The notes below the pieces were generated by a model. That model was not told the DNA's origin. It was given only the letters and a program-made list of their open reading frames with translations, and ran no database searches. From Ruminococcus sp. (GTDB taxonomy: Bacteria; Bacillota; Clostridia; Oscillospirales; Acutalibacteraceae): DNA of 52,823 nucleotides. Shown here piece by piece: positions 3,040 to 23,257 of the stretch. The translations under genes and the position numbers were made by a program. Location of the stretch: contig JAFUIK010000045.1 of assembly GCA_017473955.1 (NCBI GenBank), positions 1-52,823 on the forward strand, in the 5' to 3' direction. Numbering within the stretch: position 1 is the stretch's first letter; each line of letters begins with the position of its first letter.

Positions 3040-4371
3040 ATGTATCTGCTTTGTAACGGTAAGGTTATTACCAGAGATGAACAAAATCCGTACTTAGATA
3101 ACGGCGGTGTGCTTATTGACGGCACCAAAATTTTGGAGGTTGGTACAACCGATGAGCTTAAAGCAAAATATAAGGATGCTCAGGTTGTTGATGCCAAAGG
3201 CTTGGTTATTATGCCTGCGTTTATAAATGCTCACACTCATATTTATTCAGCACTTGCACGCGGTCTTTCCATAAACGGATATAACCCCAACAATTTCTAC
3301 GAGATACTCGATGGTATGTGGTGGAATATTGACAGAAAGCTCAGCCTAAAAGCTACAAGAGCGAGTGCATATGCTACATATCTTGATTGTATCAGAAACG
3401 GCGTTACAACTATTTTTGACCACCACGCAAGCTTCTGTGAAATACCGAATTCGCTTTTTGAAATTGCTGATGTTGCAAAAGAGATGGGTGTGCGTTCCTG
3501 TCTTTGCTATGAGGTTTCCGACCGTGACGGTGAGCAAAAATGTGATGAGGCTATTAAAGAAAACGCAGATTTTATAAGGTATTGCAAGGATAACAACGAT
3601 GATATGCTAAAAGCTATGTTTGGTATGCACGCATTGTTTACGATTTCGGATAAGACCTTTGAAAAATGCGTTAAGGCTAACGATAACATGACAGGTTACC
3701 ATATTCATATCTGTGAGGGTACAAACGATGTGATTGACTCAAAAGAAAAGTACAATATGCTCCCTGTTGAAAGACTTTTGAAGTGGGGCATTTTGGGCGA
3801 AAAAACCATCCTTGGTCATTGTATACACGTTAGTGAGCCTGAGATGGATATAATAAAAGAACACAATACGATGGTTGTCAACAATCCGCAGTCTAATATG
3901 GGCAACGCGGTCGGTTGTTCTCCGATACTCAAAATGTATGAAAAAGGTATAATGCTCGGACTTGGTACAGATGCGTATACTCACGATATGCTTGAGAGTA
4001 TGAGCTGTGCACTTACTATTCAGCGACATAATGCAGGTAAAGCTAATGTCGGCTTTAGCGAAGTTACCGATATGCTCTTTAAAAATAACCCGAAAATTTG
4101 CTCAAGATACTTTGACGGAGAACTAGGTGTTCTGAAAAAAGGTGCATCGGCTGACGTTGTTGTTATGGATTACAAGCCGTTTACTCCTTTTGATAACACT
4201 AACATCGACGGTCATATGCTCTTTGGTATGAAAGGTAGACAGTGTGTTACTACCTTTGCAAACGGCAGACTGCTTTACAAAGACAGAGAGTTTGTTGGTA
4301 TAGACGAAGAAAAAATAAACGCTGAGATTTTAGAATCGGCGAAAGATTTGTGGAGAAAAATTAACGGATAA
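3040..4371 (+). CDS. ssnA: SsnA-type amidohydrolase (predicted purine-pathway aminohydrolase)
   Basis: Metal-dependent hydrolase of the amidohydrolase superfamily, cytosine-deaminase/TrzN branch. Metal ligands are visible in NAHTH (residues 64-67), HIHICEG, ILGHCIHVS and GLGTDAYTHDM. SsnA is a recurrent member of the yge/ygf purine (uric acid) degradation set, and here it is followed after 18 nt by ygfK and then hyuA, which is the main reason for the name. Its exact substrate is not established; a deamination or ring-hydrolysis step is inferred. GGGAGG precedes the ATG at a good distance. The 443-aa length is normal. Confidence 0.85.
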   Translation: MYLLCNGKVITRDEQNPYLDNGGVLIDGTKILEVGTTDELKAKYKDAQVVDAKGLVIMPAFINAHTHIYSALARGLSINGYNPNNFYEILDGMWWNIDRKLSLKATRASAYATYLDCIRNGVTTIFDHHASFCEIPNSLFEIADVAKEMGVRSCLCYEVSDRDGEQKCDEAIKENADFIRYCKDNNDDMLKAMFGMHALFTISDKTFEKCVKANDNMTGYHIHICEGTNDVIDSKEKYNMLPVERLLKWGILGEKTILGHCIHVSEPEMDIIKEHNTMVVNNPQSNMGNAVGCSPILKMYEKGIMLGLGTDAYTHDMLESMSCALTIQRHNAGKANVGFSEVTDMLFKNNPKICSRYFDGELGVLKKGASADVVVMDYKPFTPFDNTNIDGHMLFGMKGRQCVTTFANGRLLYKDREFVGIDEEKINAEILESAKDLWRKING

Positions 4372-4389
4372 GTTTTGAGGTGACAAAAT

Positions 4390-7332
4390 ATGAGTGAAAG
4401 AATGACACCTATAAGTATAGATCAACTGCTTTTAAATATCACGCAAGAGTTTGATAAATTCGGTACTGTTTTCGGCGTTAAAAGAGCGTATAAGCACGGT
4501 GATAAAAAAGCATTTTCTATATTCAACGAAAAACTGGAAACTGTAGTAGGTCCTGCGGCCGGCCCTAATACTCAGCTTGCACAGAATATCGTAGCTTCAT
4601 ACTTTGCAGGAGCGAGATTTTTTGAGCTTAAAACTGTACAGACCTTGGATGGCGAGGATTTAGCGAAGTGTATAAATCGCCCGTGCATCAAAGCTGATGA
4701 TGAGGGCTATAACTGCGAGTGGTCAACCGAATTAACAGTGCAACAGGCTTTTGACGAGTACGTTAAAGCATGGTGCATTTTAAAAGTTATCTCCAAGGCT
4801 TATGGTTTAGGAGAGAGCGACGGTTTTGTTTTTAATATGAGTGTTGGTTATGATTTAGAGGGCATTAAGTCGCAGAAAATCGACAGCTTTATTGAGGGAC
4901 TTAAGGATTGTTCCGATACTCCTGTGTATAAAGAGTGCAAAAAAGCACTAAAAAAATACTTTTCTGACTATGTTTTAAATATAACACCAAATGTGTGCAG
5001 TAGTGTAACGCTTTCAACCCTTCATGGTTGCCCTCCTGATGAGATAGAGCGAATTGCAACTTATCTGTTAAAAGAGAAAAAGCTCAACACATTTGTTAAA
5101 TGTAACCCTACTTTGTTAGGATATGAGAGTGCAAGAGAGATTTTAGACTCTATGGGTTACGATTACATAGCTTTTGATGACCATCACTTCAATGAGGATT
5201 TACAGTATGCTGATGCTGTTTCTATGTTCGCTCGTTTACAGAAGTTGGCTGATAGTGAGGGCTTGGAATTCGGTGTTAAGCTGTCTAATACTTTTCCTGT
5301 TGATGTAAAAGCGGGCGAGCTTCCAAGTGAAGAGATGTATATGAGCGGTAAGTCGTTGTTTCCGCTGACCATCGAAATGGCAAGCAGGCTTTCAAAGGAG
5401 TTTTCAGGAAAGCTTAGAATGAGCTTTTCGGGTGGTGCTGATTACTTTAATATAGACAAGCTCTATAACTGTGGTATCTGGCCTGTGACGGTTGCTACTA
5501 CAATTCTTAAAACGGGCGGATATATGAGGCTTACTCAGCTTGCAGAAAAATTGTCAGGCTGTGAGCATAAGGAGTTTATATCTACTGACAGTAATGCTAT
5601 TGAAAAACTTAGTGCTGATGTTCGTAAAGATAAGCATCATATAAAGCCAATTAAGCCTCTGCCTAAGCGTAAGATAGATAAAAGAGTTCCGCTGATTGAC
5701 TGTTACTTTGCTCCGTGCAGTAAAGGCTGTCCGATAAATCAGGATATCCCTGAATATCTTACACTGGTTAAAAAAGGTATGCACAAAGAGGCACTTTCTG
5801 TTATTACACAGAAAAACCCTCTGCCGTTTATTACGGGCACGATTTGTGCACATCCGTGTATGAGTAAGTGTACACGTAACTTCTACGAAAGCAGTGTCAG
5901 AATAAGAGAAACTAAGCTTGAAGCAGCCAAGGGCGGTTATGATGCTTTGCTTTCTGAGATTAAGCCTGTAGCTAAGAATAGCGACAAAAAGGTTGCTGTT
6001 ATCGGTGGCGGTGCGGCCGGACTTTCTGCTGCTTACTTTGTAGCGAGAGAGGGAATAGAGGTAACCGTTTTCGAGCGTGATGAGCACTTAGGTGGAATAG
6101 TTCGAAATGTTATCCCTGAGTTTAGAATTTCAGAAGAATCGATAAATAACGATATCGAGCTTATTAAAGCTATGGGTGTTGATGTTCGCACAAACACAGT
6201 TGCTCCAAGTGTTGAAAAACTTAAGGCAGACGGCTATACTCATATCCTGTTTGCTGTTGGTGCGTATAAATCTCAGAGCTTGAATCTCGGAGAAAATGAG
6301 CTTGATGTAATTGAGCTTTTAAAGAAGCTGAGAAAAGGTGAAAGCTTAAATTTAGGCAAAAATGTAGCCGTTGTCGGTGGCGGTAACACTGCTATGGATG
6401 CCGCCAGAGCTCTCAAGCGTGTTGACAAGGTTGACAATGTTTACATCGTTTACAGAAGAACAAAACGCTATATGCCTGCTGATGAGCACGAGCTTGAGTT
6501 TGCACTTAATGATGGTGTTGAATTTATTGAGCTTGTATCCCCTGTGACACATAAAAATGGTGTGCTTTACTGTAAAAAAATGGAGCTTAGCTTGCCTGAT
6601 AACAGCGGTCGCAGAAGCGTTATTGAAACCGACGAGGTCGTGCCTGTGTTTGTTGATACCGTTATTTCAGCCATTGGTCAGAGAATTGATACTACTGTAT
6701 TCGAAGAAAACGGCATCGAGATAGTTGATAATAAAGTTCCTTTTAAAACTAATATTGAGGGCGTTTACACAGCAGGTGACTGCTTACGTGGCCCTTGTAC
6801 GGTGGTTGAATGTATAGCTGATGCACAGAAGTTTGCTGACATTGTAACAGGTAAGAAGCATATTATGAATATACCGCTTGAAGCGTTTACTGCTCCTGAA
6901 AAAGCTATCAAAAAGAAGGGTAACTTGTGCGACTCTTGTAGTGGTGTATATGAAGCTGACAGATGTCTTAACTGCTCGACAGTTTGCGAGAACTGCGTTG
7001 ACGTTTGTCCTAACCGAGCTAATGTTGTTATTACCCTTCCTGATACTCGCAGAGAAATTTTGCACGTTGACAGAATGTGCAACGAGTGCGGTAATTGTAT
7101 GAGCTTTTGCCCGTATGACAGTGCTCCATATAAGGAAAAGTTTACACTGTTTAATACCGAAGAGGATTTTGTTGACAGTGAAAATATGGGCTTCTTAGTC
7201 CTCTCTAACGATATGGTCAGAGTGCGACTTGATACAGTTAAAGATTATAAGCTAAGTGAGCTTAATGTTTTAGGTAAGGATTTAGAAAGCCTTATCAAAA
7301 CCGTGATGAACGATTATAAATATCTGTACTGA
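4390..7332 (+). CDS. ygfK: YgfK-type iron-sulfur flavoprotein (predicted purine-ring reductase)
   Basis: A 980-aa multidomain redox protein often annotated as putative selenate reductase subunit YgfK. Residues up to about 410 look like a dihydroorotate/dihydropyrimidine-dehydrogenase-type barrel (KCNPTLLGYESAREIL, LRMSFSGGADYFNI). A GltD-like [4Fe-4S] segment follows (CYFAPCSKGCPINQDIP near 438, CAHPCMSKC), then the FAD motif VAVIGGGAAGLSAAYFV near 535, the NAD(P) motif VAVVGGGNTAMDAARAL near 660, and C-terminal ferredoxin-like cysteines (CLNCSTVCENCVDVCP, CNECGNCMSFCP). The overall layout resembles dihydropyrimidine dehydrogenase rearranged, which suits reductive attack on a purine ring. It lies between ssnA and hyuA with almost no gap, so it should be co-transcribed. 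The selenate role is not supported by the context. Confidence 0.88.
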   Translation: MSERMTPISIDQLLLNITQEFDKFGTVFGVKRAYKHGDKKAFSIFNEKLETVVGPAAGPNTQLAQNIVASYFAGARFFELKTVQTLDGEDLAKCINRPCIKADDEGYNCEWSTELTVQQAFDEYVKAWCILKVISKAYGLGESDGFVFNMSVGYDLEGIKSQKIDSFIEGLKDCSDTPVYKECKKALKKYFSDYVLNITPNVCSSVTLSTLHGCPPDEIERIATYLLKEKKLNTFVKCNPTLLGYESAREILDSMGYDYIAFDDHHFNEDLQYADAVSMFARLQKLADSEGLEFGVKLSNTFPVDVKAGELPSEEMYMSGKSLFPLTIEMASRLSKEFSGKLRMSFSGGADYFNIDKLYNCGIWPVTVATTILKTGGYMRLTQLAEKLSGCEHKEFISTDSNAIEKLSADVRKDKHHIKPIKPLPKRKIDKRVPLIDCYFAPCSKGCPINQDIPEYLTLVKKGMHKEALSVITQKNPLPFITGTICAHPCMSKCTRNFYESSVRIRETKLEAAKGGYDALLSEIKPVAKNSDKKVAVIGGGAAGLSAAYFVAREGIEVTVFERDEHLGGIVRNVIPEFRISEESINNDIELIKAMGVDVRTNTVAPSVEKLKADGYTHILFAVGAYKSQSLNLGENELDVIELLKKLRKGESLNLGKNVAVVGGGNTAMDAARALKRVDKVDNVYIVYRRTKRYMPADEHELEFALNDGVEFIELVSPVTHKNGVLYCKKMELSLPDNSGRRSVIETDEVVPVFVDTVISAIGQRIDTTVFEENGIEIVDNKVPFKTNIEGVYTAGDCLRGPCTVVECIADAQKFADIVTGKKHIMNIPLEAFTAPEKAIKKKGNLCDSCSGVYEADRCLNCSTVCENCVDVCPNRANVVITLPDTRREILHVDRMCNECGNCMSFCPYDSAPYKEKFTLFNTEEDFVDSENMGFLVLSNDMVRVRLDTVKDYKLSELNVLGKDLESLIKTVMNDYKYLY

Positions 7333-7348
7333 TGTGGAGATGAGTTTA

Positions 7349-8728
7349 TTGAATATACTTTTACGCGGTGGCACGGTTGTGTCAGGTGTTAATGCTAAAA
7401 AACAGGATGTGCTGATTAGCGGTTCAAAAATCGTTAAAGTGGGCAAATTCATAAACGACAAAGATGCTAAGGTTGTTGATGTTTCGGGTAAACTGATTTT
7501 CCCAGGCTTTATTGATGCACACACTCACTTCGATTTAGAAGTATCTGACACTGTTACTGCTGACGATTTCGAGTCGGGTACAAAGGCGGCTGTGTGTGGC
7601 GGTACTACAACTATTATTGACTTTGCTACTCAAAATAAGGGGGAAAGTTTAAGTCAGGCACTAAACAACTGGCATTTAAAGGCTTTTGCTAAGTCAAGTT
7701 GTGATTACGCTTTTCATATGGCTGTGTCAGATTTTAACGATAATATAAAGGAAGAGCTTCCTGCTATGTTTGAGCAGGGTGTGAGCTCATTTAAAGCGTA
7801 TATGACCTACGACGCTATGATGCTGTCCGACGAAGAGCTGTTTTCGCTTTTATATTCGCTTAAAGAGCAAGGCGGAATTCTTGGTGTTCACTGCGAAAAT
7901 CACGGTATCATTAAATCTCTTACTCAAAAGCATAAAAATGACGGCACATTGTCAGTCGGCAATCATCCAAAGGTTAGACCTAGTGCTGTCGAAGCTGAGG
8001 CTATCAGCAGACTTCTTTCAATCGCTATGGTGGTTGATGTGCCTGTGGTTATTGTGCATTTGAGCTCAAAAGACGGCTTAGAGATGGTTGAGCACTATAG
8101 AGAAAAGGGGTGCAAGGTTTACGTTGAAACCTGCCCTCAGTATTTACTGCTTGATGATTCTCGTTATGAGCTTAGCGGTTTAGAGGGAGCAAAATATGTT
8201 TGCTCACCGCCTTTACGCAAAAAAGAGGACTCTAAAGCATTGTGGAAAGCGATTAAGTTGGGGCAAGTTCAGACTGTTGCTACTGACCATTGCTCGTTTA
8301 CTTTGGAGCAAAAAAGCGTAGGCTTAGAGGATTTTTCAAAAATGCCTAACGGACTACCTAGCGTTGAAACAAGAGGTATACTCCTATATACATATGGTGT
8401 GTGCAAAAAGCGTATAAGCATTGAGCAGATGTGCAAGGTGCTGTGTGAAAATCCTGCAAAGCTTTACGGAATGTATCCTAAAAAAGGAGTTATAAAAGCT
8501 GGCAGTGACGCTGATATTGTTGTGCTCGACCCAAAAGCTGACGGTTTTATTACCAAGAACACTCACCACAGTAAGGCGGGCTACACCCCGTATGAGGGTG
8601 TTCGCACCAAGGGTAAGGTGGTTACGGTTTATCTCCGCGGTAAAAAGGTTGTCGAAAACGGCGAGCTTGTAATCGAAAATAAGGGTAAGTACGTCAAGCG
8701 TGATAAAAATATTCTGGACTTAATATAA
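7349..8728 (+). CDS. hyuA: dihydropyrimidinase/hydantoinase
   Basis: Cyclic-amide hydrolase that opens hydantoin or dihydropyrimidine-like rings; in the purine set it hydrolyses a ring produced by the preceding reductase (inferred). Visible are the metal site IDAHTHFDLEV, the lysine that is normally carboxylated in SSFKAYMTY, GVHCENHG, VVIVHLSSKDG and the catalytic aspartate in ATDHCSF. The start is uncertain: a TTG at 7349 has GGAG 9 nt upstream, whereas an ATG at 7340 sits on that site and a GTG at 7334 has no ribosome site. All give about 460 aa. It follows ygfK directly and ends the operon. Confidence 0.88.
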   Translation: MNILLRGGTVVSGVNAKKQDVLISGSKIVKVGKFINDKDAKVVDVSGKLIFPGFIDAHTHFDLEVSDTVTADDFESGTKAAVCGGTTTIIDFATQNKGESLSQALNNWHLKAFAKSSCDYAFHMAVSDFNDNIKEELPAMFEQGVSSFKAYMTYDAMMLSDEELFSLLYSLKEQGGILGVHCENHGIIKSLTQKHKNDGTLSVGNHPKVRPSAVEAEAISRLLSIAMVVDVPVVIVHLSSKDGLEMVEHYREKGCKVYVETCPQYLLLDDSRYELSGLEGAKYVCSPPLRKKEDSKALWKAIKLGQVQTVATDHCSFTLEQKSVGLEDFSKMPNGLPSVETRGILLYTYGVCKKRISIEQMCKVLCENPAKLYGMYPKKGVIKAGSDADIVVLDPKADGFITKNTHHSKAGYTPYEGVRTKGKVVTVYLRGKKVVENGELVIENKGKYVKRDKNILDLI

Positions 8729-8745
8729 TAGCGTATATACGACAA

Positions 8746-8774
8746 AAGCACCGATTTTGCATCGGTGCTTTCTT
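8746..8774. terminator. intrinsic terminator between convergent hyuA and the acetyltransferase gene
   Basis: agcaccgat (8748-8756) pairs with atcggtgct (8761-8769) around a short loop, with A and T runs on its two sides, so it can work in both directions. Confidence 0.8.
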
Positions 8775-8798
8775 TATTTCAGAGTTTATTAAATTAAA

Positions 8799-9611
8799 TC
8801 AACTTTTAATTAGGTTAACCTTTCCGATGAGCTCATAGCCAGCTTTCTTGAAAGCTTTGACGGCACTTATGTTACCGTCGTTTGTGTACAGCATAATTGA
8901 GTTGCCGTTTTTAGAGTGCATAACAGAACTTGTGTTTGTGACGATGGTAGCGTAACCTTTGTTTCGTTCACTGAGTTTAGTGGCAACTGAACGAATGCTA
9001 GATAGCTCGTCGCTGTCGTTTCTGATAACACAGACAGATAATAACTGCGAGTTTTTCAATAACAGATAGGTGTTGTAAGAAGTATACTTCTTGACTGTTG
9101 CGTTCACCTTTTCTTCACTCCAGTGAAATTCGTCCTTAAGCTCCATATAGAAGTTGAGCAGAGCATCATAGAATTTCTTGTTGTACTTGAGCACTGTGAC
9201 GGCGTTACTTTCAGGAAGCTTGTTTCCAGTAAAACGGTAGGCACCGAGGGAAAACTCGCTTTTTACCTGATAATCAAGGTCGTTACTTATCAGTGCGTAC
9301 ATATCGGAGAATATCTGGGTGAGGTTGGGTTTTGTGAAAAACTCAAGCCCTGCTGTATCAAATTCTCTGATAGCTTTCGCGATATTAATTACTGCATCAA
9401 CATCGTTACATACATCGTCATCTGTCCATATCCACACGCTTTTACTACCCTTTTTGCGACAGATAATAACACGCTTTTTATCAGAGTAAAACTCAGCTTT
9501 GTCGCTTTGTCTTGCTCCGTCAATATAGTTAAAAACAAGTCTGTCACTGAGGTATTCAGGATTATGGAATACCTCATCGTTAGCAGAAATCATTATAATT
9601 TCAGCACTCAT
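8799..9611 (-). CDS. GNAT-family acetyltransferase
   Basis: 270-aa cytoplasmic protein. The C-terminal part shows an N-acetyltransferase fold: SIRSVATKLSERNKGYATIV would be the acetyl-CoA binding region (a degenerate R/Q-x-x-G-x-A motif) and NDGNISAVKAFKKAGYELIG the typical end of the domain. The N-terminal 150 residues are not recognised and may bind the substrate. AAAGGAG lies just before the ATG. It follows the threonine-synthase-like gene by 48 nt and probably ends that operon, so it may act on an intermediate of the purine pathway, but nothing in the sequence proves this. Confidence 0.7.
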   Translation of the reverse strand: MSAEIIMISANDEVFHNPEYLSDRLVFNYIDGARQSDKAEFYSDKKRVIICRKKGSKSVWIWTDDDVCNDVDAVINIAKAIREFDTAGLEFFTKPNLTQIFSDMYALISNDLDYQVKSEFSLGAYRFTGNKLPESNAVTVLKYNKKFYDALLNFYMELKDEFHWSEEKVNATVKKYTSYNTYLLLKNSQLLSVCVIRNDSDELSSIRSVATKLSERNKGYATIVTNTSSVMHSKNGNSIMLYTNDGNISAVKAFKKAGYELIGKVNLIKS

Positions 9612-9659
9612 AACAGTTCTCCTTTATGATACTAACAAACTGATTATTTGAAGTGATAT

Positions 9660-10904
9660 TTATTCAACTGTAATGCCGACCTTTTTGAACTCGCTTTCGA
9701 ATTCTTCAAGGTCATTTTTTGAGTATACAGGTGACGGACAGTTAGCGATTGCACTTTCGATGTCCTTCAAGCCGTTGCCTGTAACAACTGAAACAACAGT
9801 TGCGTCGCTTTCGATAAGACCCTCTGCACAAAGCTTTCTGAGTCCTGCTGTAGCGGTGACACCTGCTGGCTCACCGAACACACCACATTCCTTTGCTAAG
9901 AAACGCTGAGCGTCTCTTATTTCATCGTCAGTGACATTTACTGTGATGCCGTTTGAAGCAAGAATTGCGTTGATAGCCTTGTCAGGGTTGCGTGGTACAC
10001 CAACAGCAATTGAGTCAGCATAAGTGTTCTCTTCCTGCGGTGTCCAGTCGTTAGTCTTGTTAGCAGCGGCAACGTTAATCGGACAGCATCCGCTTGCCTG
10101 TACTGAGATAAGACGCGGGATTTTGTCGATAAGACCAACATTGTACATATCATAAAGACCCTTGTAAACGCCTGCGATTGTACAACCGTCGCCGACTGAA
10201 ATAGCAACATAGTCAGGTGCATTGAAATTAAGCTGTTCGATAATCTCTAATGATACGGTTTTCTTGCCTTCGCTAAGATACGGGTTGATAGCGGCGTTTC
10301 TGTTGTACCAGCCGTATTTATCGATAGCTTTCTTTGATAGTTCAAAGGTTTCTTCGTATGTGCCCTTAACTGCTGTGAGGTTAGCTCCAAACATCATAAG
10401 TTGAGCGATTTTACCCTTTGGAGCACGCTCTGGAACAAAAATGTAAGTCTTTAATCCTGCTGCAGCAGCATTACCTGCAAGCGAAGAAGCCGCGTTACCT
10501 GTTGAGGAACAAGCGATAGTTGAGTAGCCTGCTTCAATAGCCTTTGTAACAGCCATCGCGGAGGCTCTGTCTTTGAGTGATGATGTAGGGTTAACGCCGT
10601 CATCCTTGATGTATAGCTTCTTGATGCCGAGCATCTTAGCTACCTTAGGAACATCATAGATAGGGGAGTTGCCGACTCTTAAACCTTTTGGGGTTGTGCT
10701 TTCTTCGATTGGAAGAAGCTCGCGATATCTCCACATAGTTTCGTCCTCGCGATTTTTGAGAACGTCTTTATTAAAAACTGTTTTGATATAATCATAGTCG
10801 TAAATTACGTCAAGTATTCCGCCACACTCGCAAGTTGTTGCATCAGCAGTAGCTTCATAAGTCTTGCCACATTTTACGCACTGTAAGTATTTAACGTTTT
10901 TCAT
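9660..10904 (-). CDS. thrC: threonine synthase-like PLP enzyme
   Basis: Fold-type-II PLP enzyme, 414 aa from the ATG at 10904. It has an N-terminal zinc ribbon (CVKCGKTYEATADATTCECGG region), the Schiff-base lysine in NPTSSLKDRASAMAV, the phosphate-binding CSSTGNAASSLAGN and a C-terminal VVSVVTGNGLKD, all as in threonine synthase. A GTG start at 10913 is possible, but AGGTG lies 6-8 nt before the ATG. It is 12 nt downstream of a second PLP enzyme and no hom or thrB is nearby. Within a yge-type locus it could act on 2,3-diaminopropionate or another beta-substituted amino acid instead of phosphohomoserine; that is inference. Confidence 0.75.
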   Translation of the reverse strand: MKNVKYLQCVKCGKTYEATADATTCECGGILDVIYDYDYIKTVFNKDVLKNREDETMWRYRELLPIEESTTPKGLRVGNSPIYDVPKVAKMLGIKKLYIKDDGVNPTSSLKDRASAMAVTKAIEAGYSTIACSSTGNAASSLAGNAAAAGLKTYIFVPERAPKGKIAQLMMFGANLTAVKGTYEETFELSKKAIDKYGWYNRNAAINPYLSEGKKTVSLEIIEQLNFNAPDYVAISVGDGCTIAGVYKGLYDMYNVGLIDKIPRLISVQASGCCPINVAAANKTNDWTPQEENTYADSIAVGVPRNPDKAINAILASNGITVNVTDDEIRDAQRFLAKECGVFGEPAGVTATAGLRKLCAEGLIESDATVVSVVTGNGLKDIESAIANCPSPVYSKNDLEEFESEFKKVGITVE

Positions 10905-10916
10905 TGCTTGCACCTA

Positions 10917-12392: not shown

Positions 12393-12499
12393 TGTAATAC
12401 CTCCTGTCTGCATCAATCGTTATAGTAAAATCACCGATTTGCTGTGTTTTTCTATATAAGGTGCAGTTAAATTTTGGTTCTGTTTTTAACCATAGATAT

Positions 12500-12528
12500 A
12501 TAGTAATACAAGTGGGAGCTGATTTCAA
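12500..12528 (-). promoter_or_regulatory. promoter of the PLP-enzyme operon
   Basis: Minus-strand TTGAAA (12528-12523), a 17-nt spacer and TACTAT (12505-12500). The resulting leader of about 100 nt holds one small hairpin (ggtt/aacc) and no riboswitch I recognise. Confidence 0.45.
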
Positions 12529-12561
12529 TAATTTTTTTGTTTCTAAAATTTGAATTTTTGT

Positions 12562-12589
12562 TTGACAGAAAGGCAAGTTGCGATATAAT
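12562..12589 (+). promoter_or_regulatory. ygeY-ygeW promoter
   Basis: TTGACA at 12562-12567, a 16-nt spacer and TATAAT at 12584-12589, about 80 nt before ygeY. It is back to back with the promoter of the PLP-enzyme operon, so both arms could share one control region. Confidence 0.65.
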
Positions 12590-12668
12590 GTTATTAAGTA
12601 ATATATACTTTTTGTGTACCATTAACAAAGTTACAATTTATAGCTATATGAAGAAAGGGGCTTATGTG

Positions 12669-13862: not shown

Positions 13863-13870
13863 GGTTTAAT

Positions 13871-15114: not shown

Positions 15115-15116
15115 TT

Positions 15117-16391
15117 TTATATTATCTTTTCGCCTTTTACAAATTTGGCTGTTATGCCATTGAAGTCAGCGTTTAAGTAAACCGCACGCTGTAAGCGTTC
15201 AAAAACCGTAAGCTTTTGCGGATGCGGTAGTATAGAGTCGTCGATAACAACCGCATCGAATTCGTAGTCTTTCTCAAATGAACCGACCTTGCCGAAAAAC
15301 TCTCCGCCACCTTTTGATGCAAGAAAAAACACTTCGTTAAATGTGACAGGCTTTGCTGTGTTATCAATTAGTCGGTAGTATAGCTTTGACATTTGTACGG
15401 TATCTGCGATTGTTCTGAAAAGCGACTCGCTGTGACCTCCTGCTACGTCAGTACCTAAGCCGACTTTTAAATCCATTTCAAGATAACGCCTTATCGGTGC
15501 GATGCCTGAGCTTAAATTTGTGTTAGATGCAGGGCAATGTGCGACAAACACTCCGTTTTTCTTCATAAGCTCTGCTTCATCTTTGGTTGAATATACGCAA
15601 TGAGCCATAATGGTTTTTGCTTCTTTTCCGAAAAGCCCGAATTTATCATAAGCATCTCCGTAGCTTTTCGACTTAGGACAAAGCTCTTGGACCCATTTTA
15701 TTTCGTCTTTATTTTCGCTTAAATGAGATTGTACAGGTAGCTTGTATTCACGCTGAATGTCAGCGAGTTTTTTCATCAGCTCGTCTGAACACGATGGGAT
15801 GAATCGCGGAGTTAAAATAGGGTAGGTGCTTTTATATTTATCTGCGGTATCTAAAACCCAGCTAACAGTATCATCTGCTGACCTTTGAGCTGAGCTTTCA
15901 CACAGGTTGTCAGGACAGTTGCGGTCCATATTAACTTTGCCTACATAAGTTTCTAGGCCCGTTTCATCCATTAAATCCATCAAAATTTTTGTAGCATCCT
16001 TGTGTAAGGTTGCAAAAATACACGCTCTTGTTGTGACGCTGTTTTTAAGTGAATTGGCAAATATAGAGTAAGCTCTTTTTGCATAGTCATTATCGGAATA
16101 CTTTGTTTCTTCCATAAAAGCGGAGTTGTTGAGCCAGTCCAAAAGCTCCGCGTCCATATTAAGCGAACGAAAAGCGAACTGCGGTGCGTGGATGTGTAGG
16201 TCGGAAAGTCCGGGGATAACGAGCTTATCTGTATAATCGAACAGCTCATATTCGCAGAATTCTGACGGAAGTTCTTCATATACCCCTTTGCACAAAGAAT
16301 TCTCGCACACAAGGTAACTGTCTTTTAATGTGATAAGGTTATCCTTGTTTTTGCTGTAACAGATGTCACCTTTTATAACAAAGCTTTTCAT
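15117..16391 (-). CDS. guaD: guanine deaminase
   Basis: Converts guanine to xanthine and ammonia, feeding the purine pathway. The 424-aa protein shows the amidohydrolase metal site LSDLHIHAPQF, then guanine-deaminase hallmarks: RFIPSCSDELM, VQSHLSENKDEI, MAHCVYST, HCPASNTNLSSGIAPIRRYL and GLGTDVAGGHS. A GAGGTGAT ribosome site precedes the ATG. It is transcribed alone, convergent with ygeW and divergent from the purine importer, which fits salvage of imported guanine. Confidence 0.93.
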   Translation of the reverse strand: MKSFVIKGDICYSKNKDNLITLKDSYLVCENSLCKGVYEELPSEFCEYELFDYTDKLVIPGLSDLHIHAPQFAFRSLNMDAELLDWLNNSAFMEETKYSDNDYAKRAYSIFANSLKNSVTTRACIFATLHKDATKILMDLMDETGLETYVGKVNMDRNCPDNLCESSAQRSADDTVSWVLDTADKYKSTYPILTPRFIPSCSDELMKKLADIQREYKLPVQSHLSENKDEIKWVQELCPKSKSYGDAYDKFGLFGKEAKTIMAHCVYSTKDEAELMKKNGVFVAHCPASNTNLSSGIAPIRRYLEMDLKVGLGTDVAGGHSESLFRTIADTVQMSKLYYRLIDNTAKPVTFNEVFFLASKGGGEFFGKVGSFEKDYEFDAVVIDDSILPHPQKLTVFERLQRAVYLNADFNGITAKFVKGEKII

Positions 16392-16596: not shown

Positions 16597-16702
16597 TTGT
16601 CAATCATATTCAATGAATGTATAATTGTTGTGTTAGAAACCTATCTTTTGGTAGGCTAACTTTAGATTTCCGAACGGAAATATTTTTAAGGAGGAGATTT
16701 CC
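16597..16702 (+). promoter_or_regulatory. bmp promoter and hairpin leader
   Basis: TTGTCA (16597-16602), a 17-nt spacer and TATAAT (16620-16625). The 70-nt leader has a hairpin at 16640-16655 (cctatc/ggtagg, TTTT loop) and a second at 16666-16681 (atttccg/cggaaat) followed by atttttaag. The sequence gatttcc recurs at 16696-16702, right after the ribosome site, so cggaaat could pair with either copy and alternately free or mask the start region. Confidence 0.55.
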
Positions 16703-16703
16703 A

Positions 16704-17942
16704 ATGAAAAAGTTAATCGCACTTATCCTTGCTATCCTTATGGTAGCATCTCTTGCTGCTTGTGGCGGTACTGACACTGCTACAAAGGACGAAGCAGGCA
16801 CATCTTCTGATTTCAAGATGGGCGTTATCCTCGTAGGTGACGAGAACGAGGGCTATACATACGCTCACATTGAGGGTATTAAAGAAGCTGCTGCAGCTTT
16901 AGGCCTTGCTGATGATCAGATTATCTGGAAGTATACAATCCCAGAAGACGAGACTTGCTACGACACAGCTGCTGACCTTGCTGACCAGGGTTGCGACCTC
17001 GTTATTTCTAACTCTTACGGCCACCAGTCTCATATGCAGCAGGCTGCTACTGAGTTCCCAGAGGTTACATTCATCGCTATGACAGGTGACACAGCTAAGG
17101 CTTCAGGTCTTCCTAACTTCTGTAACGCATTCACAGCTGTTTACGAGTCAAGATTCGTATCCGGTGTTGTTGCAGGTATGAAGATTAAAGAACTTGTTGA
17201 CGCTGGCAAGCTTGAGGATGACAACTTTGATGCTGACGGCAATGTTAAGGTTGGTTATGTAGGTGCATATCCATACGCTGAGGTTAAGTCAGGCTACACA
17301 GCTTTCTTCCTCGGTATCAAGTCAGTTTATGACAAGGTTTCAATGAGCGTTCAGTTCACAAACTCTTGGTTCGACCTCACAAAAGAGGGTGAAACAGCTA
17401 ACCAGCTTCTTTCACAGGGTTGCGTTATCATTTGTCAGCACGCTGACTCAACAGGTGCTCCATCTGCTGTTCAGGCTGCTTTAGAGAAGGGCGACGTTTG
17501 CTATTCTGTTGGTTACAACATTGATATGCTCGAGGTTGCTCCTGACGCTGCTTTAACATCAGCTACAAACGTTTGGTCAGTTTACTATAAGGAAGCTATC
17601 GGTGCCGCTATGAACGGCGAAGCTGTTCCTACAAACTGGGCAGAGGGTTACGCTAAGGAAGCTGTTGCTATCACTCCACTCGGCGAGTCATGTGCAGAAG
17701 GCACACAGGAGAAGGTTGATGAAGTTATTGCTGCTATCAAGGCAGGCGAGCTTCACGTATTCGATATTGAAACATTCACAGTAGGCGGTAAGAAGGTTGA
17801 GTCTGCATTTGCTACAGATACAGATGGTGACTTCGTTCCTGATGCTGACGAGGCTGTATTTGATGGTTACTTCCACGAGTCATACTTCCAGTCAGCTCCA
17901 TGTTTTGCTCTCGATATCGACGGCATCACACTTCTTAACTAA
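16704..17942 (+). CDS. BMP-family nucleoside/purine-binding lipoprotein
   Basis: Substrate-binding lipoprotein of a BMP-type ABC importer (BmpA/Med superfamily), anchored outside the membrane. The signal peptide MKKLIALILAILMVASLAAC ends in a lipobox cysteine at residue 20. The mature part begins with MGVILVGDENEGYTYAHIEG, close to the purine-nucleoside binders. GGAGGAG precedes the ATG. It heads a four-gene importer operon, and its neighbours suggest purine bases, nucleosides or uric acid as cargo; the exact ligand is not readable. Codon use is heavily optimised, as expected for an abundant binding protein. Confidence 0.88.
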   Translation: MKKLIALILAILMVASLAACGGTDTATKDEAGTSSDFKMGVILVGDENEGYTYAHIEGIKEAAAALGLADDQIIWKYTIPEDETCYDTAADLADQGCDLVISNSYGHQSHMQQAATEFPEVTFIAMTGDTAKASGLPNFCNAFTAVYESRFVSGVVAGMKIKELVDAGKLEDDNFDADGNVKVGYVGAYPYAEVKSGYTAFFLGIKSVYDKVSMSVQFTNSWFDLTKEGETANQLLSQGCVIICQHADSTGAPSAVQAALEKGDVCYSVGYNIDMLEVAPDAALTSATNVWSVYYKEAIGAAMNGEAVPTNWAEGYAKEAVAITPLGESCAEGTQEKVDEVIAAIKAGELHVFDIETFTVGGKKVESAFATDTDGDFVPDADEAVFDGYFHESYFQSAPCFALDIDGITLLN

Positions 17943-17966
17943 TAATTAATTTAGTTTAAGTTCATA

Positions 17967-17992: not shown

Positions 17993-18020
17993 TAAACTTG
18001 TTTAATATACCCCCTAACTT

Positions 18021-18107
18021 TAGGTAAAACACAACTGCCCGCATAAGCAATGTCAAGGTTTTGGCATTGCGAGATACAAAAATTTTCGGACCGTTGTGTT
18101 TTATTTA
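18021..18107 (+). ncRNA. candidate structured leader before the importer ATPase gene
   Basis: A closing stem of about 15 bp pairs 18021-18035 with 18093-18107, including a perfect 10-bp core (aaaacacaac/gttgtgtttt) and two G-U pairs. Inside is an 8-bp hairpin at 18047-18070 (gcaatgtc/ggcattgc, loop aaggtttt) and a possible 3-bp helix (18039-18041 with 18087-18089). It ends 12 nt before the AGGAGG of the ATPase gene. It does not match the purine, xanthine, PRPP or guanidine riboswitch consensus I know. Confidence 0.5.
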
Positions 18108-18133
18108 AACTCAATTATAGAGGAGGATGTGTA

Positions 18134-19693
18134 GTGCAAAACAACATTGCTGTTAAGCTACAGGACATTACCAAAACCTTTGGTAAACAGGTTGTTGCTA
18201 ATAAGGACGTTACGCTCGATATAAGAAAGGGCGAGATTTTGTCACTTCTTGGTGAGAACGGTTCAGGAAAAACAACGTTGATGAATATGCTCGCGGGTAT
18301 TTACTTCCCTGACAGTGGTCATATTTTTATGGATACTGACGGTGAGGGCTTAAAGGAAGTTTCTATCTGCTCTCCTAAGGATGCTTACGCTCTTGGTATT
18401 GGTATGATTCACCAGCATTTTAAGTTAGTTGATGTTTTTACCGCTACCGAAAATGTTGCTCTCGGTCTTGATAAGAGCATCGCGTTCAACAAAAAGCAAA
18501 TTGCTCAAGATATTAAGGCTATCTGTGATAAGTACGGCTTTAAGGTGGAAGCTGATAAAAAGGTTTACAATATGAGCGTTTCCGAAAAGCAGACCTTGGA
18601 AATTGTCAAAGCACTGTACAGAGGTGCTAACATCCTGATATTGGACGAGCCTACTGCGGTGCTTACTCCTCAGGAAACCGATATGCTCTTTGACGTTATG
18701 CGTAATATGAAAGCGGACGGAAAGTCTATCATCATCATTACTCATAAATTAAACGAGGTGCTTGAAATCTCCGATAGAGTTTCAATTCTTCGAAAAGGCG
18801 AATATGTCGGCACTGTTGACACAGCAGATGCAACGGTGAGCTCACTTACTGAAATGATGGTAGGTCAGAAGGTTACGCTCGAAATCGACAGAAAAGAGCC
18901 TAAGGATATTAAAGAACGCTTGGTTGTTAAAAACCTCACTTGTGTTAATAAATACGGTGTAAAAGCTCTAGATAATGTTAGCTTTACCGCATACGGCGGT
19001 GAAATACTCGGTATCGCGGGTATTTCGGGAAGCGGACAAAAGGAGCTTTTGGAAGCTATTGCAGGCTTACAGGATACGGTTGAAAACAGCTCTATTGAGT
19101 ATATCGCACCTGAAGCTAATACACCGTCACAGCTTATCGGCAAAACCGCTTTGCAGATTAAGAATATGGGTGTTGCACTTTCGTTCGTACCTGAGGACAG
19201 ACTCGGTATGGGTCTTGTTGGTACAATGGGTATGTCAGACAATATGATGCTTCGTTCTTACAGAAAGGGCTTCATTTTTACTGAACGTAAAGGTCCTAAG
19301 AGCCTTGCTCAGAAGGTTAAAGATGACCTCGAGGTTGTCACACCTAGTATAACTACTCCTGTAAGAAAGCTGTCGGGCGGTAATGTACAGAAGGTTCTTG
19401 TTGGTCGAGAGATTGCGGCTGAGCCTACAGTTTTAATGACAGCTTACGCTGTTCGTGGCTTAGACGTTAACACATCATATACTATCTACGGACTTTTAAA
19501 CGAGCAGAAGGAAAAAGGTGTTGCCGTTATTTATGTCGGCGAGGATTTGGATGTGCTTTTGGCTCTTTCTGACCGCATTATGGTGCTGTGTGACGGAAAG
19601 CTCAACGGCATTGTTGATGCGAGAACTACTACTAAAGAAGAAATCGGTCTTCTTATGACACATTTAAGAGAGGAGGAGAACGATAATGGCTAA
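18134..19693 (+). CDS. nucleoside/purine ABC importer ATPase (double ATP-binding)
   Basis: 519-aa tandem ATPase of a BMP/sugar-type importer. The first half has Walker A GENGSGKTT and Walker B ILILDEPTAVLTP; the second has the Walker A-like GISGSGQKE and KLSGGNVQKVLVGREIA, with a divergent Walker B (TVLMTAYAVRGLDV instead of a usual LIxxxPTRGLD), so the second site may be weak, as is common in this family. The GTG at 18134 is chosen because AGGAGG lies 7 nt upstream. The stop overlaps the next start by 8 nt. Confidence 0.9.
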   Translation: MQNNIAVKLQDITKTFGKQVVANKDVTLDIRKGEILSLLGENGSGKTTLMNMLAGIYFPDSGHIFMDTDGEGLKEVSICSPKDAYALGIGMIHQHFKLVDVFTATENVALGLDKSIAFNKKQIAQDIKAICDKYGFKVEADKKVYNMSVSEKQTLEIVKALYRGANILILDEPTAVLTPQETDMLFDVMRNMKADGKSIIIITHKLNEVLEISDRVSILRKGEYVGTVDTADATVSSLTEMMVGQKVTLEIDRKEPKDIKERLVVKNLTCVNKYGVKALDNVSFTAYGGEILGIAGISGSGQKELLEAIAGLQDTVENSSIEYIAPEANTPSQLIGKTALQIKNMGVALSFVPEDRLGMGLVGTMGMSDNMMLRSYRKGFIFTERKGPKSLAQKVKDDLEVVTPSITTPVRKLSGGNVQKVLVGREIAAEPTVLMTAYAVRGLDVNTSYTIYGLLNEQKEKGVAVIYVGEDLDVLLALSDRIMVLCDGKLNGIVDARTTTKEEIGLLMTHLREEENDNG

Positions 19694-20816
19694 TGTTGCT
19701 GTGCATAAAAGAGAACCGCTTGTTCGTATAGCAAAGCGTGATTCAATGCCTCTGTGGCAATCCATACTCATAAGAGTTCTTTCTATCGTGCTTGCCCTTG
19801 TGGTTTGCGGTGTTATCATTTATATGCTCATTAAGGTTAACCCTCTTGAGGTTTACAAATCTATGGTTGAGGGTGCTTTTGGTGCCTTTAAAGAGGACTA
19901 CAAATTCTTTAATCGCAGAACGTGGATTACTATCCGCGACACTATGATGCTCCTTTGTATCGCTGTTGGTCTTGCTCCTGCGTTTAAGATGCGTTTCTGG
20001 AACATCGGTGCTGAGGGTCAGATTTTAGTCGGCGGTATTGCTACAGCCGCTTGTATGATTTATCTAAAAAATCTTCCTCCTGTGCTTTTGTTTATTTGTA
20101 TGATTGGTGCCAGCTTGCTTGCTGGTGCGTTATGGTCGCTTTTGCCAGCTATTTTCAAGGCTAAGTGGAACACTAACGAAACCTTGTTCACTCTTATGAT
20201 GAACTACGTAGCTATTCAGCTCACATCATTCTTTGTCGCTTTGTGGGAAAATCCTTTTGGTTCAAACACTGTCGGTATTATTAACCCGACAGGCAAAGAG
20301 GGTTGGTTCCCTCCTGTGTTTGGTCTTGATTACCTGATGAATGTTATAGTTGTTATGACTATCACAGTGGGTATGTTCATTTACCTTAAGTATTCAAAGC
20401 AGGGTTACGAAATTTCTGTTGTAGGTGACTCCGAGAACACTGCTCGATATGCAGGTATCAACGTTAAAAAGGTAATCATCCGCACAATGCTCATTTCAGG
20501 TGCTATTTGCGGTCTGTCAGGCTTTGTTGCCGTGTCTGGTGCGTCACACACAATTTCAGTTAATACAGCAGGCGGTAAGGGCTTTACAGCTATCATCGTT
20601 GCTTGGCTTGCAAAGTTTAATACATTCACAATGATTTTGATTTCTCTGCTCCTTGTTTTCCTTGATAAGGGTGCTATCGAAATTGCTTCAAAATACGACC
20701 TCAACGATTACGTTGCGAGTATGATTACAGGTATTATTCTGTTCTTCATTTTAGGTAGCGAGTTCTTTGTTAACTACCGTATGATTTTCAGAAGCAAGGA
20801 AAAGGAGGTACAGTAA
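19686..20816 (+). CDS. nucleoside/purine ABC importer permease 1
   Basis: Membrane subunit, 376 aa, with about eight to ten hydrophobic spans. RFWNIGAEGQILVGGIATAA and WNTNETLFTLMMNYVA are typical of the YufP/NupB family of BMP-type importers. It overlaps the ATPase gene and precedes the second permease by 1 nt. GGAGGAG lies upstream of the ATG. Confidence 0.9.
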   Translation: MANVAVHKREPLVRIAKRDSMPLWQSILIRVLSIVLALVVCGVIIYMLIKVNPLEVYKSMVEGAFGAFKEDYKFFNRRTWITIRDTMMLLCIAVGLAPAFKMRFWNIGAEGQILVGGIATAACMIYLKNLPPVLLFICMIGASLLAGALWSLLPAIFKAKWNTNETLFTLMMNYVAIQLTSFFVALWENPFGSNTVGIINPTGKEGWFPPVFGLDYLMNVIVVMTITVGMFIYLKYSKQGYEISVVGDSENTARYAGINVKKVIIRTMLISGAICGLSGFVAVSGASHTISVNTAGGKGFTAIIVAWLAKFNTFTMILISLLLVFLDKGAIEIASKYDLNDYVASMITGIILFFILGSEFFVNYRMIFRSKEKEVQ

Positions 20817-20817
20817 T

Positions 20818-21810
20818 ATGGGTAATATGAATACATTATTGCAGTTATTACAGTCTTCCATTGCTTTCGGTACAATTATTATGTTCGGTGCTGTTGGTGA
20901 GATTATCACCGAGAAAGCTGGTAACTTAAACCTCGGTATCCCCGGTGTTATGTACCTCGGTGCGATATCAAGCTTGGTTGGTGTTTTCTTCTACGAAAAG
21001 AACGTTGCCGACCCTAACCCGTTTGTGTGTGCTGTTATCGCTATTCTTTGTGCGTTTTTAGCAGCAGCTCTGGGTGGTCTTTTGTTCAGCTTTTTGACTA
21101 TTACTTTAAGAGCTAATCAGAATGTAACAGGTCTTACGCTGACTATTTTTGGTTCGGGTGTAGCAAACTTCTTTGGCGGATTGTTAAACGGCTTTTCAGG
21201 CGGCGTTGGTCAGATTCGTGTTGAGACAACCTCTAAAGTATTTATGGCGAAAATCCCGTTTTTATCCGAACTCGGTGTAGTCGGTAAGTTGCTTTTCTCT
21301 TATGGTTGGCTTGTTTATGTTGCTATTATTATTGCTGTGTTATCTCAGTGGTTCTTTAATAAAACACGCACAGGTCTTAATCTTCGAGCTGTCGGTGAGA
21401 ACCCTGCTACAGCAGATGCCGCAGGTATTAACGTTACACTTTATCGTTACCTTGCAACCTGCATCGGCACTGGTATCGCAGGCTTGGGCGGTCTTTACTA
21501 TGTTATGGACTACACAAAGGGTACTTGGGCAAATGACGGTACTATTGAGAACCTCGGCTGGCTTGCTGTTGCTCTTGTTATCTTTGCTATCTGGCGTCCT
21601 AAGAACGCTATCTGGGGTGCATATCTGTTTGGTCTTTTATTCTGGCTTTACTTGTATGTTCCGGGTCTTGATAGAAAAACAAATGAACTTTTCAATATGC
21701 TCCCATATGTTGTCACAATTATCGTGCTTGTTTTCACATCCTTCAGAAAGAAGAGGGAAAACCAGCCTCCGAACGCGTTGGGCCTTGCGTATTTCAGAGA
21801 AGAGAGATAA
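20818..21810 (+). CDS. nucleoside/purine ABC importer permease 2
   Basis: Second membrane subunit, 330 aa, of the YufQ/NupC type. Characteristic segments are EIITEKAGNLNLGIPGVMYL, LRANQNVTGLTLTIFGSGVA and LRAVGENPATADAAGINV. AAGGAGGT precedes the ATG. It completes the binding protein, ATPase, permease, permease set; a terminator follows. Confidence 0.9.
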   Translation: MGNMNTLLQLLQSSIAFGTIIMFGAVGEIITEKAGNLNLGIPGVMYLGAISSLVGVFFYEKNVADPNPFVCAVIAILCAFLAAALGGLLFSFLTITLRANQNVTGLTLTIFGSGVANFFGGLLNGFSGGVGQIRVETTSKVFMAKIPFLSELGVVGKLLFSYGWLVYVAIIIAVLSQWFFNKTRTGLNLRAVGENPATADAAGINVTLYRYLATCIGTGIAGLGGLYYVMDYTKGTWANDGTIENLGWLAVALVIFAIWRPKNAIWGAYLFGLLFWLYLYVPGLDRKTNELFNMLPYVVTIIVLVFTSFRKKRENQPPNALGLAYFREER

Positions 21811-21827
21811 ATTTATATTGCACACTA

Positions 21828-21859
21828 AAATCCCTTGCTTTTTGCAGGGGATTTTTTTA
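21828..21859 (+). terminator. terminator of the purine importer operon
   Basis: aaatccc and ggggattt arms around a ttgctttttgc loop, followed by seven Ts. Confidence 0.85.
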
Positions 21860-21895
21860 TACTTAATTTGTTATTCTTTTAGTTTAGGTGATATT

Positions 21896-23257
21896 ATGGC
21901 ATTGTTACTTAGAAACGTTAACTACGCGGTGTCGTGTGATAAAACCGACACAGTGTATGAGGGCGTGGATATTTTTATAAAAGACGGCAAAATTGAGGCA
22001 ATTGGAATTGACCTTGATGTTGGTGCCGAGCGTGTAATTAATTGCACTGATATGATATGTTATCCGGGGTTAGTTAACACTCACCACCATTTGTATCAGG
22101 TGTTTTCGCGTAATATTCCGAGTGTGCAGAATATGGAGCTGTTCCCTTGGCTTAAATCGCTTTACGGTGTGTGGAAAAACCTTGACAACGATGTTGTGTA
22201 TTTAAGCTCACAATGCGGTATGACGGAGCTGATGAAAAACGGTTGTACTACATGTTTTGACCACCATTATGTGTTCCCGCAGGGAGGTTCGTTGTCGCTG
22301 TTAGAGAGCCAGCTTGAAGCAGCTAAAGAGCTTAATATCAGGATGTATATGTCGCGTGGCAGTATGAATCTGTCACAAAAAGACGGGGGCTTACCGCCTG
22401 ACAGTGTTGTTCAAAATACAGCAGAGATACTCAAAGACAGTGAGCAAGCTATTGAAAAATACCACGATGCATCTTTTGGTTCTATGAATATGCTCGCTCT
22501 AGCTCCTTGTTCGCCATTTTCGGCAAGCTCTGACTTATACAGAGAAAGTGCAATCTTAGCCAGACAGTATGGTGTCAGGCTTCATACACATTTGTGTGAA
22601 ACTCTGGATGAGGAAAACTACACTTTGGAAAAATTTAAAATGCGACCGCTTGAATATATGCAGTCTTTAGGCTTTATCGGTGAAGATGTGTGGTATGCTC
22701 ACGGAATTCATTTTTATGATGCTGAGGTTACTACTCTAGCAAAAACAGGCACAGGTGTTGCACATTGCCCTGTGTCGAATATGAAGCTAAGCTCGGGAGT
22801 TGCGAAAATTCCTCAGATGCTTAAAAAAGGGGTAAAGGTTGGTTTAGCGGTTGACGGCAGTGCATCAAACGACGGCTCGAATATGTTAGAAGAAATAAGG
22901 GTTGCTTATTTACTCTCGCGTCTTACCTACGGCAGTGAGGGGTTAACTCCGTATCAGGTACTGAAAATAGCAACAGTTGGTTCAGCACAGGTTTTAGGCA
23001 GAGATGACATAGGCTCTATCGAAGTAGGAAAATGTGCCGATATGTTTCTTGTTGATAAACGAAGAGTAGAGCTTGTAGGTGCAACATTTGACCCTAAGTC
23101 AATGCTTGCGACAGTGGGCTTAAAGGGTGCTGTGGACTACACAATAGTAAATGGCAAGATAACTGTCGAAAAAGGCAGATGTGTTACCATTGACGAAGAA
23201 AAGCTTTATGAAAAAGCTGATAAAAAAGTTAAGGAATATCTCAGCGATTTGCTGTAA
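21896..23257 (+). CDS. 8-oxoguanine deaminase-like amidohydrolase
   Basis: 453-aa amidohydrolase of the AtzB/TrzN/8-oxoguanine deaminase branch. Metal and catalytic segments are LVNTHHHLYQVFSRNI, CTTCFDHHYVFP, LHTHLCET, WYAHGIHF and VDGSASNDGSNM. Known close families deaminate 8-oxoguanine to uric acid or dechlorinate and deaminate triazines; next to the purine importer and guaD, 8-oxoguanine is the most likely substrate (inference). A reading frame extends far upstream across the permease gene, but the ATG at 21896 follows AGGTGAT after a short gap and begins at the conserved N terminus. Confidence 0.8.
   Translation: MALLLRNVNYAVSCDKTDTVYEGVDIFIKDGKIEAIGIDLDVGAERVINCTDMICYPGLVNTHHHLYQVFSRNIPSVQNMELFPWLKSLYGVWKNLDNDVVYLSSQCGMTELMKNGCTTCFDHHYVFPQGGSLSLLESQLEAAKELNIRMYMSRGSMNLSQKDGGLPPDSVVQNTAEILKDSEQAIEKYHDASFGSMNMLALAPCSPFSASSDLYRESAILARQYGVRLHTHLCETLDEENYTLEKFKMRPLEYMQSLGFIGEDVWYAHGIHFYDAEVTTLAKTGTGVAHCPVSNMKLSSGVAKIPQMLKKGVKVGLAVDGSASNDGSNMLEEIRVAYLLSRLTYGSEGLTPYQVLKIATVGSAQVLGRDDIGSIEVGKCADMFLVDKRRVELVGATFDPKSMLATVGLKGAVDYTIVNGKITVEKGRCVTIDEEKLYEKADKKVKEYLSDLL

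Follow-up and report, generated by a model that had tools for sequence, protein, structure and literature searches.

A PALPx-ThrCx enzyme pair in the anaerobic purine-degradation locus of a Ruminococcus species: a candidate two-gene module where YgeX is absent

The window studied here, a stretch of 52,823 nucleotides from Ruminococcus sp. (contig JAFUIK010000045.1), holds a real locus for reductive purine degradation, and within it lie two genes, here called PALPx and ThrCx, that encode pyridoxal phosphate (PLP) enzymes of fold type II. We propose, with moderate confidence, that PALPx and ThrCx form a conserved PLP module of two enzymes that belongs to anaerobic purine pathways, most likely processing a three-carbon (C3) amine where the lyase YgeX is absent. 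The terminal step of the window locus looks like a variant.

The anaerobic route of uric acid breakdown was worked out as recently as 2025. As described in passages of PMC12507026 and PMC12990295, in Escherichia coli and Clostridioides difficile XdhD reduces urate to yanthine, which is reduced in turn by YgfK or UacX, its ring being opened by SsnA; HyuA forms 2,3-diureidopropionate, from which YgeW or UacY plus YgeY release 2,3-diaminopropionate, and YgeX cleaves the latter to pyruvate. An earlier, sequence-only reading of the window had taken the locus for one of anaerobic purine (uric acid) breakdown, and this fits the pathway in those passages. Families were called by bit scores against NCBIfam curated cut-offs or Pfam cut-offs, written here as score/cut-off, and the central part of the locus is as follows.

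3040..4371, plus strand: ssnA, aminohydrolase (opens reduced yanthine); NF005540, 651/444
4390..7332, plus strand: ygfK, flavin/iron-sulfur (Fe-S) reductase (dearomatises yanthine); TIGR03315, 1320/835
7334..8728, plus strand: hyuA-type hydantoinase/dihydropyrimidinase; TIGR02033, 579/393
9660..10904, minus strand: ThrCx, threonine-synthase-like fold-type-II PLP enzyme with an N-terminal four-cysteine motif; NF006050, 310.9/303; TIGR00260, 215/167; PF00291, 232.7/35
10917..12392, minus strand: PALPx, CysK-like fold-type-II PLP enzyme of about 490 amino acids; best NCBIfam match 73/351; PF00291, 27.1/35
12393..12668, no strand: intergenic region separating the divergent units PALPx-ThrCx and ygeY-ygeW (sequence inspection)
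12669..13862, plus strand: ygeY, M20 hydrolase (removes ureido group); TIGR03526, 672/321.5
13871..15064, plus strand: ygeW, knotted carbamoyltransferase; TIGR03316, 796/500

SsnA, YgfK, the HyuA type, YgeW and YgeY, all named by the sequence-only reading, clear their curated cut-offs within 3040-15064. The start given there for ygeY, 12537, had to be moved to the ATG at 12669, and ygeW is placed at the ATG at 13871, its open reading frame (ORF) opening with a GTG at 13859. The same reading left out three minus-strand genes of the interval (PALPx, ThrCx and a GNAT-like gene) and was silent both on the absence of YgeX and on the two-gene PLP module, which sits between hyuA and ygeY and is divergent to ygeY.

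The locus resembles the reductive uric acid pathway of E. coli, C. difficile and Clostridium sporogenes in its SsnA, YgfK, HyuA-type, YgeW and YgeY genes, and the same genome carries Xdh and selenium maturation genes on other contigs, but the locus differs in having PALPx-ThrCx and no YgeX match over cut-off. No match to YgeX/DpaL (TIGR01747) over cut-off was found in any of the seven ygeW-bearing genomes among 36 of the genus, which include the window's own (G000, a 1.6 Mb draft, completeness 83.2%) and G016 (99%), nor was dpaL over cut-off in two other relatives. Against TIGR01747, whose cut-off is 274, the ThrCx region of G000 gives 18.7 bits, and PALPx is not among the matches listed. PALPx orthologues, 77-91% identical to that of the window, occur in the same seven of 59 relatives, the window's genome included, that have ygeW over cut-off, and ThrCx adjoins PALPx in all seven of these ygeW-bearing genus members.

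Both proteins keep a PLP-lysine motif and a phosphate loop: in PALPx an HKVG lysine and a PSTGN loop are invariant over 34 aligned sequences, and in ThrCx an SLKDR-type lysine and an STGN loop over 30. PALPx reaches no curated family and stays under the PF00291 gathering score, which ThrCx clears. Its residues from about 96 to 339 align with O-acetylserine sulfhydrylase and cystathionine beta-synthase (CysK, CBS; E 1.2e-15), from which it differs by long N- and C-terminal parts beyond the match as well as by its low family scores. It occurs in a long form (about 490 amino acids, as in the window; 34 genomes by our sorting) and a short one (about 457), both in purine loci. As an identity for PALPx, the ornithine-pathway thiolase OrtB was discarded: no OrtB model is among its NCBIfam matches. 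ThrCx residues 57-404, behind the cysteine motif, align with solved threonine synthases (2zsj, 1uim, 6cgq, 2d1f; E 1.8e-64), and ThrCx also clears the threonine synthase models NF006050 and TIGR00260; unlike threonine synthase, it has GDGCT for the GNAGN loop and SLKDR for SFKDR, and its occurrence tracks YgeY and PALPx. With DpaL/YgeX the pair shares the fold-type-II superfamily, ThrCx being related by profile (E 2.9e-10), and in similar clusters it has neighbours of the kinds that dpaL has (ygeY, carbamoyltransferase, xdh), but it comprises two genes instead of one and neither reaches TIGR01747.

The distribution of these genes was followed in a phylum sample of 398 genomes (Bacillota), where ygeW over cut-off was found in 19, dpaL in 61 (at E 1e-60; 60 of them over the curated cut-off), the PALPx family in 87 and strong ThrCx in 75, this last number remaining from 80 at E 1e-100 once five weaker relatives (343-391 bits) were dropped. 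PALPx and ThrCx occur together in 73 genomes, PALPx only in 14, ThrCx only in two and neither in 309, a co-occurrence with phi 0.88 and a Fisher p of about 1e-62, uncorrected for phylogeny. Among the 19 ygeW genomes PALPx and dpaL tend to exclude each other (both in three, dpaL only in five, PALPx only in ten, neither in one; p 0.04), and no ygeW genome lacks all of dpaL, PALPx and ThrCx. Ten of the 11 ygeW genomes without dpaL have both pair genes, and the remaining one (G400) has ThrCx alone.

YgeY was searched in 160 genomes of the phylum, 80 of the 261 with neither pair nor dpaL and 80, picked by ourselves, of the 133 (134 counting the window's) with pair or dpaL. Taking as strong a score above 450 bits, a threshold set after the scores were seen, we find strong YgeY in 42 of the 44 genomes with the pair only, in 12 of 13 with pair and dpaL, in 6 of 23 with dpaL only and in 1 of 80 with neither; the last is 85% complete and 7% contaminated. 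At the curated cut-off the corresponding numbers are 43/44, 13/13, 8/23 and 2/80. Strong YgeY is thus found in 61 of the 160 genomes, 54 with the pair (12 of them also with dpaL), six with dpaL only and one with neither. From these counts it follows that, in the genomes searched, YgeY accompanies the pair more often than it accompanies YgeX.

Gene neighbourhoods were read in 75 of the 87 PALPx genomes (12, the window's own among them, were left out); 20 of the 75 were chosen for the proximity of ThrCx to PALPx, which holds for all or almost all of these 20. As core purine genes we counted Xdh, YgeY, carbamoyltransferase, SsnA, YgfK/UacX and HyuA, by BLAST with identity thresholds that we set and with the xdhAC and uacX references taken from locus L115, where the genes next to PALPx read, by our own naming, as XdhAC, UacX and SsnA. 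The pair is linked in 41 of the 75, with at least one core purine gene adjacent in 39 of the 41 and at least two in 34. In 80 loci from named records both genes are present in 56, with at least one core gene in 38 of these and at least two in 33. Across the partly overlapping sets, the two genes lie on the same strand in 87 of 89 loci with both and less than 300 bases apart in 62 of 89. By a count made by eye, 28 of the 57 pair genomes have YgeY over cut-off no more than 10 kb away from PALPx or ThrCx. A clear example is L102 (G410), where ygeW, PALPx, carbamate kinase, ThrCx and ygeY are co-directional behind xanthine phosphoribosyltransferase and hyuA. The idea that only the window's genus has purine genes next to the pair was rejected, as they were found in loci of many families and in Desulfosporosinus and Halanaerobium records. 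Cultured carriers include Oscillibacter ruminantium GH1, Halanaerobium kushneri and Desulfosporosinus lacus. Two Treponema records have the pair and no core purine gene seen beside it, and one Deltaproteobacteria record has PALPx alone.

Two further neighbours recur. An ornithine-carbamoyltransferase-like enzyme lies beside the pair in L246 (3100-4080), L241, L243, L258, L260 and L274, mostly also beside ygeY; it stands at about 32-38% to YgeW, scores 287.5/280.85 with the ornithine carbamoyltransferase model in L246, and occurs in genomes without YgeW over cut-off. It is perhaps a second carbamoyltransferase of the pathway. Of the 80 named loci, 26 have a YheO-like regulator with PAS and helix-turn-helix parts close to PALPx (for example L125, 5355-6014); three loci of the genus have it too, and it is missing from the window.

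A swap between similar clusters can also be seen. In L315 (G234) dpaL stands with carbamoyltransferase, ygeY, a UacT-like permease and the xdh genes for molybdenum, FAD (flavin adenine dinucleotide) and Fe-S subunits, while L258, L260 and L274 hold the same kinds of genes reordered, with a PuuR-like regulator added and PALPx-ThrCx instead of dpaL; no dpaL was found at E 1e-60 in the genomes of these three loci.

Several observations weigh against a pair that simply stands in for YgeX. PALPx and dpaL show no mutual avoidance in the 398 genomes, 16 of the 87 PALPx genomes having dpaL (p 0.40), so strict exclusion of YgeX by the pair was rejected; the tendency to exclude is seen only among the 19 ygeW genomes, and these counts carry no correction for phylogeny. 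The long PALPx form even occurs with dpaL above chance (13/34 against 48/364); six of these 13 genomes belong to one family, and in the four that were read no purine gene is beside PALPx. Fourteen PALPx genomes have no ThrCx, and in the 34 neighbourhoods with an unlinked pair or no ThrCx a core gene is near PALPx in just nine. Among the 56 named loci with both genes, 18 show no core gene in reach. Both proteins have STGN where eight DpaL rows have TDGN, and PALPx barely aligns with DpaL by profile (probability 27.6). Finally, dpaL and the pair share one cluster in 4 of the 41 linked loci (G061, G212, G288 and G335; in G212 dpaL is the next gene after PALPx), and dpaL is beside PALPx in 7 of the 80 named loci.

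Since dpaL and the pair can share clusters, PALPx-ThrCx may contribute something further, for instance action on the other enantiomer. In such a case PALPx-ThrCx would supplement YgeX by acting on another intermediate or enantiomer (L- versus D-diaminopropionate, or a ureido-amino acid), and members without YgeX would release diaminopropionate or use it otherwise. The shared clusters and the excess of long PALPx with dpaL favour this explanation, as do two points from the literature: passages of PMC12507026 describe E. coli YgeX as active on both isomers, and those of PMC12990295 leave the stereochemistry open. However, 44 of the 57 pair genomes have no dpaL and nearly all of these retain strong YgeY, and the comparison of L315 with L258, L260 and L274 suits replacement better. 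We regard a supplementary role as possible but doubtful.

What the pair would produce is suggested by its neighbours. By BLAST, GlyA (serine hydroxymethyltransferase) is near 9 of the 41 linked pairs and Sda (iron-sulfur serine dehydratase) near 4, against none in 20 dpaL-only loci, a control drawn from the 45 genomes that have dpaL but lack PALPx; some of these loci are on short contigs. Among the 80 named loci, seven have the phosphoserine aminotransferase SerC and four have SerA, and one dpaL-only locus has a SerA-like gene. The recurrence of serine-node enzymes beside the linked pair suggests that its product may be serine. GlyA and Sda are also compatible with a glycine route, and this counts against such a proposal: passages of PMC3519856 document a glycine-serine-pyruvate route in purinolytic clostridia, described for Clostridium acidurici, and the pair could serve this branch (purines to glycine, then GlyA and serine dehydratase to pyruvate) rather than diaminopropionate breakdown, an explanation to which the SerC and SerA neighbours lend themselves as well. 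Yet the frequent partners of the pair are YgeY, carbamoyltransferase and HyuA, that is, the diureidopropionate route; no GlyA or Sda is typed among the window genes at 577-37771; and in C. acidurici, by the locus tags in the same source, glyA and sdh are distant from xdh. A role in the glycine-serine branch is improbable.

Still less probable is that the two are passengers in the locus, ThrCx serving as the threonine synthase of the cell's biosynthesis and PALPx resembling cysteine synthase in function. ThrCx does clear the NCBI threonine synthase model by 8 bits and align with solved threonine synthases, but strong ThrCx is absent from 323 of the 398 genomes (318 with none at E 1e-100, plus the five weaker relatives), its presence tracks YgeY and PALPx, and purine genes adjoin nearly all linked pairs.

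The enzymes missing from the window were found elsewhere in the same genome. The sequence-only reading had noted that xdh is absent and must be encoded elsewhere or not be needed, and had pointed to a selenium or molybdenum cofactor set; the former alternative is now settled, XdhA, SelD, YqeB and YqeC being found on contigs C21 and C8 of G000. XdhA scores 1226/780 and is adjoined, by BLAST, by FAD and Fe-S subunit-like genes. A gene like the selenium-dependent xanthine dehydrogenase is split in two pieces at the ends of C8 and C21 (BLAST), and in G016 (L235) this enzyme is intact (1356/830). On C21, SelD (394/125), YqeB (370/220) and YqeC (163/73) are over cut-off, as is a protein of the cysteine desulfurase family (448/377); a MocA-like protein is under its own (140/186). 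With PF02738, two molybdenum hydroxylases were counted in each of the seven ygeW-bearing genus members and none in the four ygeW-lacking members tested.

The remaining genes of the interval are the following.

8799..9611, minus strand: GNAT-like protein, peripheral; weak Pfam FR47 match, 22.2/22.1
15117..16391, minus strand: guanine-deaminase-like amidohydrolase; TIGR02967, 336/375, under cut-off
16617..17942, plus strand: Bmp-type substrate-binding lipoprotein; PF02608, 99.6/24.1
18050..19693, plus strand: ABC importer ATPase; PF00005 in two stretches, NF047930 relative under cut-off
19686..20816, plus strand: ABC importer permease 1; PF02653, 101/26.8
20818..21810, plus strand: ABC importer permease 2; PF02653, 120/26.8
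21902..23257, plus strand: 8-oxoguanine deaminase (predicted to turn 8-oxoguanine into uric acid); NF006055, 558/532; PF01979

The importer and the 8-oxoguanine deaminase proposed by the sequence-only reading are thus present, while its guaD stays under the cut-off; only two amidohydrolases, not three, are found beyond SsnA and HyuA, and the ORF 21302-23257, given as the extent of the deaminase gene, has an overlong start, the match covering residues 200-644 and so placing the start near 21902. Taken as a whole, that interpretation of the locus is partly supported. A Bmp-ABC importer, with no UacT-type permease among the genes typed at the locus, and the added guanine-deaminase-like and 8-oxoguanine deaminase genes are further differences from the E. 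coli, C. difficile and C. sporogenes pathway; guaD and bmp share the ygeW locus in all six other ygeW-bearing genus members. The window locus also differs from that pathway in lacking a carbamate kinase, which in four of the six other genus loci (L080, at 12720-13655, and L082-L084) lies between ygeW and guaD and which is not at that position in the window, L081 or L085. The GNAT-like gene was rejected as a module member, a relative being present in just one of the six other genus loci (L080, 58%).

Putting these parts together, the Bmp-ABC importer would take up purines or nucleosides, from which the guanine-deaminase-like and 8-oxoguanine deaminase enzymes would yield xanthine and urate. Xdh enzymes, with genes at other places in the genome, would convert these two into each other and also form yanthine by reduction of urate; the pyrimidine ring would be opened by YgfK and SsnA, the imidazole ring by HyuA, and YgeW and YgeY would take off the ureido groups to give 2,3-diaminopropionate. 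PALPx-ThrCx would then carry the C3 amine product on, by beta-elimination or beta-replacement of its amino group, to serine or pyruvate, the two proteins possibly dividing racemisation and lyase work between them. A more specific proposal, which we advance only tentatively, is that most YgeY-bearing members of the phylum end the pathway with PALPx-ThrCx and not with YgeX, L-serine being made from 2,3-diaminopropionate, probably its D form, through combined racemisation and beta-hydration.

Other features of the window were also noted. Divergent to ssnA, at 577-2861 on the minus strand, are an NADPH-dependent glutamate-synthase-like subunit and an FNR-like subunit, a pair which we take to be NfnAB-like; relatives of one or both are kept at the same place in L081 and in L080, which a contig end truncates there, and these subunits may supply reducing power to YgfK. 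A protein with a dockerin type I domain (30537-31628, plus strand) suggests a fibre-degrading gut bacterium. Also on the plus strand are a TraX-family protein (40818-41564), a MerR regulator with a TipAS antibiotic-recognition domain (43890-44627) and DUF5714 fused with a low-molecular-weight phosphotyrosine phosphatase domain (45760-46701). Rfam and tRNA scans of the window gave no matches.

In the literature searched, no paper was found that names the PALPx-ThrCx pair in purine breakdown, and the passages of PMC4581275 consulted do not mention it. According to the legend of Figure 3 in PMC12507026, the survey reported there scored YgeX by the Pfam domain PF00291 alone; as ThrCx clears the cut-off of this domain, which PALPx does not, the variant would probably be scored as having YgeX and so be overlooked.

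The anaerobic uric acid pathway is relevant to gout and to the gut microbiota. If PALPx-ThrCx is its terminal step in genomes such as the one studied here, YgeX would be the rarer ending in the phylum, and the last step and its product would be directly testable with two proteins and a purchasable substrate. If the serine ending were true, purine carbon would enter metabolism at serine, giving one-carbon units and glycine via GlyA or pyruvate via serine dehydratase, and the pair would represent an enzyme activity that is new and make purine catabolism known in a further major variant, masked so far by 'threonine synthase' and cysteine-synthase-like annotations.

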